NCBI RefSeq assembly: GCF_000153225.1
Contig: NZ_CH724148.1
Location: 1,120,640 to 1,184,639, forward strand
Length of the DNA stretch: 64,000 bases
Origin: Polaribacter irgensii 23-P
Lineage (GTDB): Bacteria > Bacteroidota > Bacteroidia > Flavobacteriales > Flavobacteriaceae
Reading direction: 5' to 3'
In this document: piece by piece, positions 42,692 to 48,708 of the stretch
How the letters are laid out: every line of letters starts with the position of its first letter
Numbering within the stretch: the first letter of the stretch is position 1
The notes under the pieces: generated by a model
The model's input: the letters and a program-made list of their open reading frames with translations, nothing else
Databases searched by the model: none
What the model was told of the DNA's origin: nothing
Translations under genes and position numbers: made by a program

Positions 42692-43597
42692 TTAGTTTAA
42701 TTTTTTGTCTGTAAACGAGTCCATTTCATATTTGTTATGAATTGTAATTATTGCCAACCCAAAAAGCACAGCAGCAACAATTAAGACGGTGCTAATCAAT
42801 CCGCTAACTCCAAATGACATCCGGATTAGAATCGTGGAAATAACAAATCCTGAGTTCCTGATGATTTTATGAAATTGATCAGTGTAAAAAAAAGAAATTA
42901 AAAGAAGTATTACATCGACGAGAATCAATACCGTAAAAAATTGATCAAAAAACAGGTTGTTAATACTTTCGAAAGAAGGTAGTTTTGTGGAGGGTGCGGA
43001 GATTCCTGCAGACCAATCAATAAAAGTATACAGTCCAATAACAAAAAATAAGGGCACTAATATAATAGCAATTAGCTTTTTCTTTTGAACAAATTTTTCA
43101 ATTATGGGTTTGGTAATGGTTTCTTGAGATGCTTTACGTTTTCCTTGTTTTTGAAAAAGATAGATGAGATAAAATAGTACGAGAGAAGCCACTAAATCAT
43201 AGGTAAATTGCAAATCTCCTTTGATTTCAAACCAATCTGCAGTCAGTTCTAATGCTGACAAATCTTTAAATAATTTACGGATAATAATTAGTGTTATAAT
43301 TTCGTATTGTTTGGTAATGTAGGTTGTAAAAGATTTTGGTAAATAGTAAATCAATAAGTATACCTCATACACAAGGATAAAAGAAAAGGGCGTGTATGCT
43401 GCTGATATTGGATTTTTAAGCAGTTCAGAATTTGAAGGGAAATCTACAAAGTCTAATTTTAAAAAGTAAATAATAGCTAAATGAATAAAAAAACTAAGGA
43501 TTGCTAATTTAAGAATGATATTCTCCGCTTTTCCTCGCGTTTTGTCAGAGAGCAGTTTTTCGAAGATAAATGGTACTATGTTCTTTATTTTAATCAT
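42692..43597 (-). CDS. Multi-spanning membrane protein, unknown function
   Basis: A 301-residue protein with about seven predicted membrane segments (IILKLAILSFFIHLAIIYFL, AAYTPFSFILVYEVYLLIYYL, YDLVASLVLFYLIYLF, LIAIILVPLFFVIGLYTFI, FDQFFTVLILVDVILLLISFF, SGFVISTILIRMSF, ISTVLIVAAVLFGLAIITI). Basic residues are concentrated on the KRKASQETITK loop, which should be cytoplasmic. I do not recognise a family. Its promoter region (43598 onwards) holds a small palindrome at 43654-43671. Confidence 0.65.
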   Translation of the reverse strand: MIKIKNIVPFIFEKLLSDKTRGKAENIILKLAILSFFIHLAIIYFLKLDFVDFPSNSELLKNPISAAYTPFSFILVYEVYLLIYYLPKSFTTYITKQYEIITLIIIRKLFKDLSALELTADWFEIKGDLQFTYDLVASLVLFYLIYLFQKQGKRKASQETITKPIIEKFVQKKKLIAIILVPLFFVIGLYTFIDWSAGISAPSTKLPSFESINNLFFDQFFTVLILVDVILLLISFFYTDQFHKIIRNSGFVISTILIRMSFGVSGLISTVLIVAAVLFGLAIITIHNKYEMDSFTDKKLN

Positions 43598-44001
43598 ATC
43601 CCTAATTTTTAAACAACCTGTTCATTAATTATTTTTGAAGTAAACAACACAAGTACACTTATGCAAGTGTAAAGATAATTAAATTACATGAATTTTCAAT
43701 TTGTTAAACTTTTTTGGGGGCAATTGTGTTTTTTTTAAAAGATATTTTTTTAGTCTTAAAAATGCACTTCGCTGCATTTGGTAGTTTAAATTTTTATCGA
43801 GTTATTTTGATGCTATTTTCTAAAGGGATATCTGCAAGTTTCTTTGCTATAAAAGTTCGGTTTTTGAAGGATCATGTACCATTTTATTCTTTCAGCATCT
43901 TATGATTTTTCATCTAAATACATTGTAAAGAAGAGAATGCAATTATTTTTTAGCGTAAAGTCTGGACGTTACTCTCTAAAGACTTAGAAATATTTAAACT
44001 T
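43598..44001. other. Spacer of 404 bases, no convincing gene
   Basis: This stretch lies upstream of the 301-residue membrane protein and downstream of the esterase, both on the minus strand. It is AT-rich with many T runs. A palindrome TACACTT-ATGC-AAGTGTA stands at 43654-43671, which may be an operator. One open frame of 63 codons (plus strand, 43714-43905, TTG start) has no coding signs and I reject it. Otherwise I see nothing. Confidence 0.5.
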
Positions 44002-44901
44002 TTAAGGGCGTGTTTTTAATTTCTCTTTTGATGGCGTTGAGCAGTGTAGGTTTGTTATATATTTAGAGGTAGTTGAATTTTGAATTAAGGTTTGAACCTT
44101 TAGCATCTTGCAATAGCAAGTGCTGTCTTCTAAGAACAGCTGTAGCCATGCAATCGCAATATTCCCAATATCTTCGTTTCCTGTTAACGGATTTAAAGGA
44201 GTAGCGTGGTTGCCTCCAGCAATTTCAAGAAGTAATTTACTGGTAGTGGTTGGGGTATAATTATAATGTACATCTGCATGCTTATTTGTAGGAGCCACCT
44301 CGTCTAATTGGCCACTAATAATGAGTACAGGTACTTTATGGTCTAGGCTTGAAGTAGTCAAGGTGCTTTCCAACAACCAGGGGGCGATTGCGAGCACTGC
44401 TTTTATTGTAGGATTTATTTGAGCAGCTAATTGAGCGCCGCCACCACCCATTGACCACCCACCAACCGCAATGCTATTGGTGTCAATTTTTTGGTATAAA
44501 GGAGAAGCTATTCTTTGATTCTCTTGTCGCAATGTAACCATTGCATCGATTAACGCATTGGCTCTTACTTTTGGGAGGTCATAGATAGAATTTGTACCAA
44601 TTGTCATGCATAAAAATCCGCGTGAAGCTAAATATTTTGCCCAGCCTTCAATGGATGTTTGAGTAGCTCTGTAACCAGGAACTAAAACAATGCTTTTCAA
44701 AAGGCTATTTGCATTCAAAGGAAAATATAAGGTAGCACCGGCATAATCTGGTCCATTTCGAAGTCCATCAGATTCTTTTAAGGAACCGAATGTCAATGGT
44801 GTGTAATTGCTGATGTTTTCAATTGTAAGAGATTCACATTGGCTAAAAGAGGCAGTTGCGTGAATGAAAAGAGATAGCAAAAGTATAAATGGAATTTTCA
44901 T
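44002..44901 (-). CDS. Secreted alpha/beta hydrolase resembling PETase and cutinase-type polyester hydrolases
   Basis: A 299-residue enzyme with a signal peptide (residues 1-20, ending FSQ). It shows the features of bacterial polyesterases: the oxyanion segment VPGYRATQTSIEGWAKYLASRGF with Tyr77, the nucleophile elbow GGWSMGGGGA (Ser150, Met151), the aromatic IAPW (Trp175), the catalytic Asp200 in SGQLDEVAP, and His232 in GGNHATP. All agree with the order and spacing of Ideonella PETase and Thermobifida cutinase. It has one Cys at residue 22 and more at 262, 264 and 287 that could form disulfides. No T9SS sorting domain follows; the catalytic domain is closely followed by the stop. The natural substrate (aliphatic polyester, cutin-like or wax) is not known. 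Confidence 0.85.
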   Translation of the reverse strand: MKIPFILLLSLFIHATASFSQCESLTIENISNYTPLTFGSLKESDGLRNGPDYAGATLYFPLNANSLLKSIVLVPGYRATQTSIEGWAKYLASRGFLCMTIGTNSIYDLPKVRANALIDAMVTLRQENQRIASPLYQKIDTNSIAVGGWSMGGGGAQLAAQINPTIKAVLAIAPWLLESTLTTSSLDHKVPVLIISGQLDEVAPTNKHADVHYNYTPTTTSKLLLEIAGGNHATPLNPLTGNEDIGNIAIAWLQLFLEDSTCYCKMLKVQTLIQNSTTSKYITNLHCSTPSKEKLKTRP

Positions 44902-44962: not shown

Positions 44963-45645
44963 TTAATCGGAGCAATTGGCAGAAACCATGATTTTTGAAA
45001 GGAAGTTGGAGTAGGTGCCGAAAAACAAACTTTTAAAGAAACATGCTGCTCGGTTCACTCTCAAAATAGCGCCTTTTTTGTTGCCAGAAACGGCACGATC
45101 TCCTTTTGGATCAATGGTGAAATCGTTGCAAATGTGCTGTTCATTTAACATGTTGTAAATTTTTTAGAATTAAAGTCAGTATATGGACTGATGTCAATCG
45201 ACAGGATCTTGTCAAGTTCGCCATGAAAAGAAATCATTGGAAGTAGTTCTTCTGGTTTTATCGCGATAAGAGAAACAGCTCCCCAATTGTTAAAAAGGGC
45301 TGTAATTGAAAAAGTATGAGTAAAAGAGTTTCCTGACGCATCCAAAAGTTCGAGTTTTGCTCCTAGCGTTGGAATAAATTTATTCCACTTTTCCTGACTT
45401 CCATAGGCTGTCATTAATGCGGTAATTGATCGTGCAGTGCTCTTTCGAAAGAAAAGATCTATGAATAGCTCTTGGGGTGTACCACGGACGCCCATTGCAG
45501 TCCCATACCTGCTATTTTTTAAAGAGTCAGTTTTAGTTTTAGAGAAAAATTCAGCAGTATTATATCTACCTGCCTGCGAGCAGTATTGAGCAGTTACGCT
45601 AGTTGTGGACAGTATTGCCACAAAAATAAAACGAATGGTATCCAT
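44963..45645 (-). pseudogene. Broken secreted esterase gene (alpha/beta hydrolase) with internal deletion and frameshift
   Basis: Two reading frames on the minus strand look like remains of one secreted carboxylesterase. The first, 45645 to 45145, has a signal peptide (MDTIRFIFVAILSTTSVTAQ), a typical N-terminus (YCSQAGRYN, then ELFIDLFF) and later parts of the same family (FNNWGAVSL, LLPMISFHGELDKI). Between LFIDLFF and ITALMTAYG the oxyanion HGGG and nucleophile GxSxG regions (over 100 residues) are missing. The second frame, 45151 to 44963, carries the C-terminal part (HICNDFTIDPKGD, VNRAACFFKSLF, SANCSD). The frames join if one A is added to the A6 run at 45160-45165. The conserved catalytic His seems replaced by Arg (GDRAV). 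Certainly inactive as read. Confidence 0.7.
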
Positions 45646-45703
45646 GTTTTTTAGCGGTACAAAGATCAAATTTAGTCAATAAAAAGATTGGGAAATTTTT
45701 ATT

Positions 45704-48550
45704 TTAATGCGCTTCCAACCAATTCTCTCCAATACCAACTTCAACATCTAATGGTACACTCATTTTAAAAGCATGTTCCATTTCGTATTTTATAATTGGC
45801 TTAATAATTTCTAATTCATCTTTGTGGGTGTCAAAAACCAATTCGTCATGGACTTGTAATAACATTCTCGACCGAAAACCTTCTTTTTCAAAACGCTTTT
45901 GAATGTTGATCATTGCCAACTTTATAATATCTGCAGCTGAACCTTGAATGGGCGCATTTACCGCATTTCTTTCAGCACCGTTCCTCACCACTGCGTTTCT
46001 AGAGTTGATGTCTTTCAAATAGCGACGTCTGTTTAACACGGTTTCGACATAACCGTGCTCTCTGGCAAAATCTACCTGTGCAGACATGTATGCTTTCAAC
46101 TTTGGATACGTTTCGTAATACGTGTCAATTAGTTCTTTGGCTTCGCTTCTTGATAGATCCGTTTGATTGCTCAATCCGAAGGCAGAGACTCCATAGACAA
46201 TTCCGAAATTCACTGTTTTTGCGTTGCTACGTTGATCGCGTGTAACTTCGTTTAGAGGAACATTAAAAACTTTAGCAGCGGTGGACGCGTGTATGTCTTC
46301 TCCGTTTTTAAACGCATTTATCATGTTTTCTTCTTCACTTAAAGCAGCAATAATTCGCAATTCTATTTGAGAATAATCTGCGGCTAACAACACATGATTT
46401 TCATCTCTTGGGACAAATGCTTTTCGAACTTCTCTTCCGCGTGCTGTTCTAATGGGGATATTTTGTAAATTAGGATTGTTAGAACTCAAACGACCTGTAG
46501 CCGCAACAGCCTGCATGTATTGCGTGTGAATTCTTCCTGTTTTTGGATTTACTTCATTTGGCAAGGCATCTACATAGGTGCTTTGTAGTTTTTTATACTG
46601 CCTATATTCTTGAATGTCTTTAATAATATCATGCTCTTTTGCCAAGTAAGATAAAATGTCTTCACCTGTAGCATATTGACCGGTCTTCGTTTTTTTAGGT
46701 TTTTTTACCAATTCCATTTTTTCAAACAAAACAATTCCTAATTGTTTCGGAGAGGCGATGTTAAATTCTTCACCTGCTTGCTCATAAATGCTTTTTTCTA
46801 AGCGGTCGATATCTGCAGTTAAGGCAACAGAAAGTTCTTTTAAGAAGTCTGTATTGACATTGATCCCTTCAATTTCCATAGCTGTTAAAACAGAGACCAA
46901 AGGCAATTCAATATCATTGAAGAGTTTCGTAACATTTCCGTTTTCTAATTCTCCGGTAAAAAGCTGTTTCAGTTGAAAGGTGATGTCTGCATCTTCTACA
47001 GCATATTCCGTTTGCTCTTTTAGAGGCACACTGCGCATAGAAAGCTGGTTCTTTCCTTTTTTCCCGATAAGCTCCGCAATGGAGATAGGTTGGTAATTTA
47101 AATAGGTCTCCGCCAAGACATCCATGTTGTGCCGCATGTCTGGATTGATTAAATAATGCGCAATCATCGTATCAAATAATTTACCTTTTACAGGCATCTT
47201 ATAGGTAGACAGTACTTTGATATCATATTTTAAGTTGTGTCCAATTTTTTCAATTTCCGACTCGAAAAAGGGTCTAAAATCTTCTAATATACGTTGAGTT
47301 TCTGCTTGGTCTTCAGGAAAAGACACATAATACCCCTTTCCGGTTTCATAGGAAAAAGCAATGCCAATTAACTCAACTTCTAGGGCTTTTAAACCGGTAG
47401 TTTCAGTGTCAAAACAAACCGCAGTTTGTTTCATTAAATTTCGAAGTAATAAGGTTCTTGCGAAAGGAGAATCTATATGTTGGTAAAAATGATTTGTGGT
47501 TGAAATGGTTTTAAAACCAGAGGCAATCTCTTCTTCAGAAACACTTCCGGTTCCGGGAGCTGCAAATAAATCGAATTGGCCCTCAGGGATAAGAGTTTCC
47601 TTTTTTGGAGTTGCTTTTATTTTTTCTTCTGAACCATTTTTAGAGGCACCTGTTTCTTCTGCAGTATCAATGGCGAATGTTTTTGTGAAATTTTTCAATA
47701 AGTTTCTGAACTCTAATTCGTTAAAAAGTTCAGTAACTTTTGGCATGTCTGGTTGGTCAAGTTCAAAATCTTTGGCATTAAAAGTAACGGGGACATCTAA
47801 CATGATGGTAGCTAATTTTTTAGAGAGTAGGCCTAAATCTTTCGCCGCTTCTACTTTCTCTCTCATCTTTCCTTTGAGTTCATGTGTGTTTGCTAAGAGG
47901 TTTTCCATCGTGCCATAAGTAGTTAAAAACTTTTTTGCAGTTTTTTCACCAACCCCTGGTAAACCAGGAATATTATCGGCAGAATCGCCCATCATTCCCA
48001 AGAAATCAATCACTTGTAAGGGATCAGTAACACCAAATTTTTCTTGTACTTCGGGAACGCCCCAAATATCGTACCCACCTCCAAAACGCGGTTTGTACAT
48101 AAAAATATTATCAGAAACTAGCTGTGCAAAATCTTTGTCTGGGGTTACCATAAAAGTTTTATAGCCTTCTTTTTCTGCCTGTTTAGAAAGGGTTCCAATA
48201 ACGTCATCTGCCTCAAAACCTGCCTTTACCATAATAGGGATGTGCATTGCTTTTAGAATTTCTTGGATGTAAGGCACTGCAATTTTAATCGCTTCTGGCG
48301 TTTCGTCTCTGTTTGCTTTATACGCTTCAAACATTTCCACACGATCCACACTTCCGCCCTTGTCAAAGCAGACGGCTAAGTGATCGGGCTTTTCTCGTTT
48401 GATTACATCTAAAAGAGAATTCATAAAACCCATAATAGCAGAGGTATCTAATCCTTTAGAATTAATTTGTGGATTCTTGATAAATGCATAATATCCTCTA
48501 AAAATTAATGCAAAAGCATCTACTAAAAAAACTCTTTTTTGATCTGACAT
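45704..48550 (-). CDS. polA: DNA polymerase I
   Basis: Repair and Okazaki-fragment polymerase of 948 residues with all three activities. The 5' nuclease domain has LVDAFALIFRGYYAF and GFEADDVIGTL; the 3'-5' exonuclease domain keeps its acidic residues (FDTETTGL, HNLKYDIKVL, YAVEDADITF); the polymerase domain shows motif A DYSQIELRIIAALS, motif B RSNAKTVNFGIVYG (Phe at the dNTP-discriminating site) and motif C QVHDELVFD. The ATG at 48550 was chosen because MSDQKRVFLVDAFAL is the family start; the longer frame adds 37 residues of no relevance. It faces away from the metallophosphoesterase gene. Confidence 0.97.
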   Translation of the reverse strand: MSDQKRVFLVDAFALIFRGYYAFIKNPQINSKGLDTSAIMGFMNSLLDVIKREKPDHLAVCFDKGGSVDRVEMFEAYKANRDETPEAIKIAVPYIQEILKAMHIPIMVKAGFEADDVIGTLSKQAEKEGYKTFMVTPDKDFAQLVSDNIFMYKPRFGGGYDIWGVPEVQEKFGVTDPLQVIDFLGMMGDSADNIPGLPGVGEKTAKKFLTTYGTMENLLANTHELKGKMREKVEAAKDLGLLSKKLATIMLDVPVTFNAKDFELDQPDMPKVTELFNELEFRNLLKNFTKTFAIDTAEETGASKNGSEEKIKATPKKETLIPEGQFDLFAAPGTGSVSEEEIASGFKTISTTNHFYQHIDSPFARTLLLRNLMKQTAVCFDTETTGLKALEVELIGIAFSYETGKGYYVSFPEDQAETQRILEDFRPFFESEIEKIGHNLKYDIKVLSTYKMPVKGKLFDTMIAHYLINPDMRHNMDVLAETYLNYQPISIAELIGKKGKNQLSMRSVPLKEQTEYAVEDADITFQLKQLFTGELENGNVTKLFNDIELPLVSVLTAMEIEGINVNTDFLKELSVALTADIDRLEKSIYEQAGEEFNIASPKQLGIVLFEKMELVKKPKKTKTGQYATGEDILSYLAKEHDIIKDIQEYRQYKKLQSTYVDALPNEVNPKTGRIHTQYMQAVAATGRLSSNNPNLQNIPIRTARGREVRKAFVPRDENHVLLAADYSQIELRIIAALSEEENMINAFKNGEDIHASTAAKVFNVPLNEVTRDQRSNAKTVNFGIVYGVSAFGLSNQTDLSRSEAKELIDTYYETYPKLKAYMSAQVDFAREHGYVETVLNRRRYLKDINSRNAVVRNGAERNAVNAPIQGSAADIIKLAMINIQKRFEKEGFRSRMLLQVHDELVFDTHKDELEIIKPIIKYEMEHAFKMSVPLDVEVGIGENWLEAH

Positions 48551-48708
48551 ATTCGTTTTGTAACCTATTTGTGGATGATTTTTTTTAAGTAGCGTCCAAT
48601 TAATTGTATCCAAAGTACCTGCAGTAAAGCTACAAAACTTTAACATCCTATTAAAATTCATTCGGTATTATAACTGTTATCTTTGACAAAAATTTTTAAA
48701 CATCTTCT

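Follow-up and report, generated by a model that had tools for sequence, protein, structure and literature searches.

A predicted PET30-type polyester hydrolase gene of Polaribacter irgensii 23-P followed by an apparent sorting-domain relic

The locus and the family of its hydrolase

The sequence analyzed here (the window) is a stretch of 64,000 nucleotides from Polaribacter irgensii 23-P, and the features at and around one of its hydrolase genes are listed in Table 1. The open reading frame reported in the initial annotation exists and lies on the minus strand, which had been left unsaid. The gene order is the same as that on contig L002 of Polaribacter sp. UBA8214 (genome G519), where the corresponding PETase gene encodes a P0003-like protein with the sorting domain present.

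Table 1. Features of the hydrolase locus in window positions; rows are those of an alignment of 140 sequences, composed of 119 on the window's side (close rows) and 21 on the PET30 side
Feature	Position	Strand	Basis or remark
PETase-family alpha/beta hydrolase CDS (PF12740), 299 aa	44002..44901	-	stop codon 44002-44004; profile and sequence matches
Putative Sec signal peptide, residues 1-21	44839..44901	-	by eye; sequence MKIPFILLLSLFIHATASFSQ before C22
Tyr77, oxyanion-loop aromatic of clamp	44671..44673	-	alignment; Tyr in 98/119 close rows
Ser150 (nucleophile) and Met151	44449..44454	-	Ser in 140/140 rows, Met in 139/140
Trp175, second clamp aromatic	44377..44379	-	Trp in 118/119 close rows and 11/21 PET30-side rows
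Asp200, triad	44302..44304	-	140/140 rows
His232, triad	44206..44208	-	140/140 rows
Cys262 and Cys264, one a likely partner of Cys287	44110..44118	-	Cys262 in 140/140 rows, Cys264 in 112/140
Cys287, likely C-terminal disulfide partner	44041..44043	-	probably corresponds to the PET30 disulfide (PMC8767016)
Decayed T9SS type A sorting-domain relic, first part	43891..44040	-	anchored alignment to L002
Remaining space, filled by sorting domain and following gap in the relative, unrecognizable here	43703..43890	-	379/1000 shuffles as high
Next gene, 301 aa, no family	42692..43597	-	syntenic in L002 (95%)
Preceding small ORF, 174 aa, no family	45145..45669	-	poorly conserved in L002
Large ORF, DNA polymerase I (named by eye)	45704..48661	-	91% identical in L002

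The PETase profile PF12740 matched the ORF with 180.8 bits (E 4.3e-53; curated cut-off 28), and sequence searches with the protein gave 7pzj at 3.7e-82 and IsPETase chains at about 1e-40. PET30 (PDB 7PZJ) is the best solved match both by sequence and by fold, and the AlphaFold2 model has a mean pLDDT of 90.4. The membership in the PETase/cutinase-like family proposed in the initial annotation was thus borne out. A dienelactone hydrolase identity, which had been named there among the competing matches that would refute it, was rejected on the basis of Pfam and NCBIfam profiles, since PF01738 gave 21.2 bits, barely above its cut-off of 21 and far below the score of PF12740. No lysophospholipase family was found among the Pfam and NCBIfam matches at E<=1e-3, and the NCBIfam model of the BHET hydrolase BdeA (NF051441) gave 135.6 bits against an equivalog cut-off of 520. 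Judged by sequence and predicted structure, the gene product is a predicted polyester hydrolase of the PET30 type, and its catalytic domain is complete. The view that such enzymes are few in Bacteroidota is to be tempered, since 685 homologues, mostly from unlabelled organisms, were obtained at E<=1e-3, with the best 120 of them listed.

Several other observations were made in the neighborhood and in the family. The 174-aa ORF that separates the PETase gene from polA (DNA polymerase I) aligns with L002 in two pieces at 49-67%, far below its neighbors. The PETase gene adjoins polA in the window, in L002 and in L009, L022, L023, L028, L029 and L030; some of these six further loci belong to other genera, so the place looks old. 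At L032 (G233:C35:27824-29995), two PETase genes stand in tandem, both matched into the sorting domain. The protein P0004 appears by eye to be P0005-like in its N-terminal third and P0003-like in the rest, as would result from recombination within the family or from misassembly.

Active site and cysteines

The Ser-Asp-His triad (S150, D200, H232), the GxSxG motif, the oxyanion Met (M151) and an aromatic clamp of Tyr/Phe and Trp/Tyr (Y77, W175) are all present. The residues picked out at the outset, i.e., Tyr77, Ser150/Met151 in GWSMGGGGA, Trp175 in APW, Asp200 and His232, were recovered without exception and far above chance, and their catalytic and clamp roles are supported by the sequence alignment, the AlphaFold2 model and the fold comparison.

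IsPETase, a type II PET hydrolase, has the fold, the triad, Tyr-Met-Trp and the spacing up to Trp in common with the window protein. The PETase spacing stated earlier therefore holds up to Trp175; beyond it, the alignment with 8d1d, the spacing reference (titled PROSS PETase), has a 4-residue gap between Trp and Asp and a 1-residue gap between Asp and His. In the window protein, His208 and His212 occupy the places of Ser214 and Ile218 of wild-type IsPETase. The cysteines are at positions 22, 98, 262, 264 and 287; pairing of Cys287 with Cys262 (or Cys264) is the only combination that matches a known disulfide, namely the single one of PET30. The positions of the IsPETase active-site disulfide are occupied by G197 and T234 in the alignment. 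Among the stabilizing disulfides suggested before, the C-terminal pair with Cys287 is possible and the active-site pair is absent, and the two disulfides that define type II (IsPETase-like) PETases are not both available.

PET30 of Kaistella jeonii and PET27 of Aequorivita share the PETase family with the window protein. The window protein resembles PET30 in Ser-Asp-His, in the position of the C-terminal disulfide and in having no active-site disulfide (G195 and V232 in PET30; PMC8767016). The two known enzymes have a PorC-type T9SS sorting domain, whereas that of the window is decayed, and their binding residues are Phe-Met-Tyr or Phe-Met-Trp, as compared with Tyr-Met-Trp here (PMC8767016). 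At the sequence level, Tyr-Met-Trp is the norm of the window's subfamily and no special trait of the window, because 98 and 118 of the 119 rows on its side have Tyr77 and Trp175, respectively (position 77 is Phe in 19 more). On the PET30 side, position 77 is Phe in 19 of the 21 rows, and position 175 is Trp in 11, Tyr in 7 and Phe in 3. Residue swaps in PET30 towards Tyr and Trp are reported to have led to loss of activity, and the motif is therefore no predictor of PET hydrolysis; nor can it settle the question, since PET53 has Phe-Met-Trp like the active PET27, yet is inactive (PMC8767016).

The sorting-domain relic and the tag state across the family

The ORF ends 12 residues past Cys287 and is devoid of a C-terminal type A sorting domain, the relic of which lies downstream; the frame enters the relic out of phase and stops at 44002. 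Among the matches listed, those closest to the window protein that end in another C terminus are P0002 (76%) and P0003 (73%), both of 370 aa and with PF18962, and P0002 is also above the cut-off of the type A sorting-domain model TIGR04183. The space from Cys287 to the conserved block before the next gene measures 338 nt here, as against 334 nt in L002, and the three frames of the window's space contain 7, 8 and 9 stops. The anchored alignment of the whole space with L002 scored 378 and that of the first 150 nt scored 200, and in neither case was the score attained by any of 1000 shuffles (maximum 372 and 156, respectively). With a sorting-domain profile and no position constraint, the evidence was weak, since the score was attained by 15 shuffles out of 3000 and by 4 of the 954 window pieces; when the match had to be in register to within two positions, a single shuffle out of 3000 and a single piece out of 954 reached the score of the relic. 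Unanchored local alignment of the relic was not significant, its score of 170 (shuffle mean 124.9, sd 18.0, maximum 201) not exceeding those of the best shuffles or of other pieces of the window, and frame-tolerant alignment, with 60 shuffles per comparison, was borderline. The best reading of the sequence is that the sorting domain decayed in place and was not excised.

A second case was found in UBA2540 (Flavobacteriaceae; L003, the same place as L005 in genome G070), which is placed in the window's GTDB genus. In its gene, an in-frame stop immediately follows the catalytic domain, and beyond this stop lies the first half of a sorting domain (24.7 bits; 0 of 3000 shuffles as high). The tag is lacking in 38 of the 140 aligned rows, and its state changes at least four times on the 140-row tree, all forced by starred branches; on a careful 45-row tree, five changes are needed and four are forced. 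A single loss shared by the window and UBA2540 was rejected on the 45-row tree (one clade, p-AU 0.003, a somewhat favorable value, since the choice of the group followed inspection of the first tree). Since both lineages retain sorting-domain relics, it follows from their sequences that the direction was loss and not gain, and for the remaining tagless groups loss is presumably also the direction.

The absence of a sorting domain noted in the initial annotation is thus real, and the relatives show it to be a loss. Its novelty is to be tempered, since, besides these 38 rows, the tagless PET93 and PET94 of Maribacter and Arenibacter are already published (PMC13188925). These are flavobacterial, with Tyr-Met-Trp, a signal peptide and no PorC domain, like the window protein; they differ, and are here set apart by description, in having 433-434 aa, in lying outside the PET27/PET30 subcluster and in being called dienelactone hydrolases (PMC13188925). 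That article mentions Polaribacter once, in its reference list. Among the matches of a literature search that were covered by title or opening abstract, which were part of the total, none concerned sorting-domain decay in PETases or PETases of Polaribacter. Tagless Roseivirga-type homologues (P0046, P0099, P0103 and others; 25 rows) belong to the window's subfamily, with 55-63% identity and 278-302 aa, and form a tagless group separate from the window. To our knowledge, this group has no characterized member.

Secretion system, selection and the probable fate of the enzyme

The T9SS set examined comprised GldJ-N, PorV, SprA and PorU. In the window's genome (G000), GldJ, GldK, GldL, GldM, GldN and PorV are all over NCBIfam cut-offs, SprA has an open frame of 2400 codons, and the gldJ frame is open through the lipoprotein signal, though without an ATG start. 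By sequence, porU is broken into six pieces between gldJ and porV, five of which have internal stops. The pseudogene is located at L049:2818-6126 (G000:C1:1451317-1454625) with many stops and frame changes, the flanking gldJ and porV frames being open; at G083:C6:242414-245700, PorU is likewise fragmented and interrupted by stops, and this may be a further copy in decay.

In the genus, PorU is over the cut-off in 130 of 166 genomes and without a match in 15, while SprA was found in 164, including all 128 of good quality. These 128 comprise 30 genomes with PorU absent or weak (E 1.2e-7 or worse), 97 with PorU and the window's own. Sorting-domain matches are fewer without PorU (median 14.5, range 1 to at least 32) than with it (median at least 32, range 12 to at least 32; at least 32 in 75 of the 97), the Mann-Whitney p of 4e-14 not being clean because the genomes are related. 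The window's genome has 12 matches in this comparison, which puts it at the bottom of the range seen with PorU.

An explanation of tag loss by PorU decay alone was rejected. It is no sufficient cause, because UBA2540 lost its tag with PorU intact, G000 keeps 11 of 13 sorting-domain matches over the cut-off, and F. johnsoniae secretes ChiA, RemA and SprB without PorU (PMC9127263). Type B cargo, including SprB, is independent of PorU/PorV for secretion in F. johnsoniae (PMC9143113), and two flavobacteria without PorU have kept gliding (PMC7440613). A causal link between the two decays may serve as a lead.

The window enzyme had been called secreted, and this was not supported: its putative Sec signal peptide, a part of the earlier description that agrees with what is seen by eye, leads to the periplasm only, and crossing of the outer membrane via the T9SS needs the C-terminal domain (PMC10202324), which is here a decayed relic. 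An enzyme leaving the cell by some other route is quite improbable. PET93 and PET94 are called secreted on proteome data without a PorC domain (PMC13188925), and the window protein has the putative signal peptide; however, its nearest tagged relatives use the very T9SS domain that is broken here, and Pfam and NCBIfam searches of the ORF at E<=1e-3 gave no further export domain. Still harder to credit is an assembly or sequencing error, although the relic starts with a frame change, since P0001, from a separate source, has the same truncated end, a single error would not account for so degraded a relic, and long frames are intact (985 aa in the adjoining ORF, besides SprA).

It is unlikely, to a lesser degree, that the gene is on its way out, i.e., that the sorting domain was lost first, selection was relaxed and the catalytic domain is to follow. 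The 299 codons run without a stop or frame break beside a space rich in stops, the catalytic and clamp residues are all kept, and the same 299-aa form is found in P0001. Over 267 codons, the pair of window and L002 has an omega of 0.11, as compared with 0.027 for the next gene. A five-taxon codon model, judged unstable, gave 0.16 on the window branch versus 0.059 elsewhere and disfavored omega 1 on that branch (2dlnL 5.36); since the fit is better when L002 is freed in its place, with the estimate at its bound, we do not rely on the branch-specific omega. On the side of gene loss, the branch of the window exceeds that of the tagged sister P0002 in length (0.25 versus 0.08), the catalytic part is 77% identical to L002 versus 95, 91 and 88% for the neighbors, and matches at E<=1e-60 occur in 11 of 166 genomes of the genus, most genomes being without the gene. 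Thus, intact frame, invariant residues and the form of P0001 argue for use, and the longer branch argues for relaxed selection; neutral drift after tag loss is possible.

We consider it probable that the window encodes a PET30-type hydrolase with a complete catalytic domain and a T9SS domain decayed in place, which is exported by Sec, is likely periplasmic and acts on small esters or oligomers rather than on solid polyester outside. The preprotein would be exported by Sec and fold in the periplasm, and it would no longer be recognized by the T9SS, because the C-terminal domain is the signal (PMC10202324). By analogy, catalysis should survive, since PET30 without this domain keeps its activity (PMC8767016). 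Small esters or oligomers would be the likely substrates, because a periplasmic enzyme cannot reach solid polymer; exit by lysis or vesicles could occur. A PET-degradation pathway in this genome is not supported: for the only partner sought, an MHETase-type tannase (PF07519), the sole match had 18.9 bits, below the cut-off of 29.8.

We tentatively put forward, as a possibility, that sorting-domain decay has repeatedly turned Bacteroidota PET-hydrolase-type enzymes, once secreted to the surface by the T9SS, into esterases of the periplasm, and that the window's genome is in the middle of this change, with the PorU sortase for type A cargo decaying and the T9SS core kept, perhaps for gliding. 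The in-place relic, the independent second loss and the tagged syntenic sister together amount to a clean natural experiment in which one catalytic domain can be compared in the presence and absence of export. It is on the strength of PETase-like genes that marine Bacteroidota are regarded as potential degraders of plastic. If many such enzymes have lost the export tag, gene counts would overstate extracellular attack on polyesters, and in nature the tagless enzymes may in that case serve to cleave small esters within the envelope.
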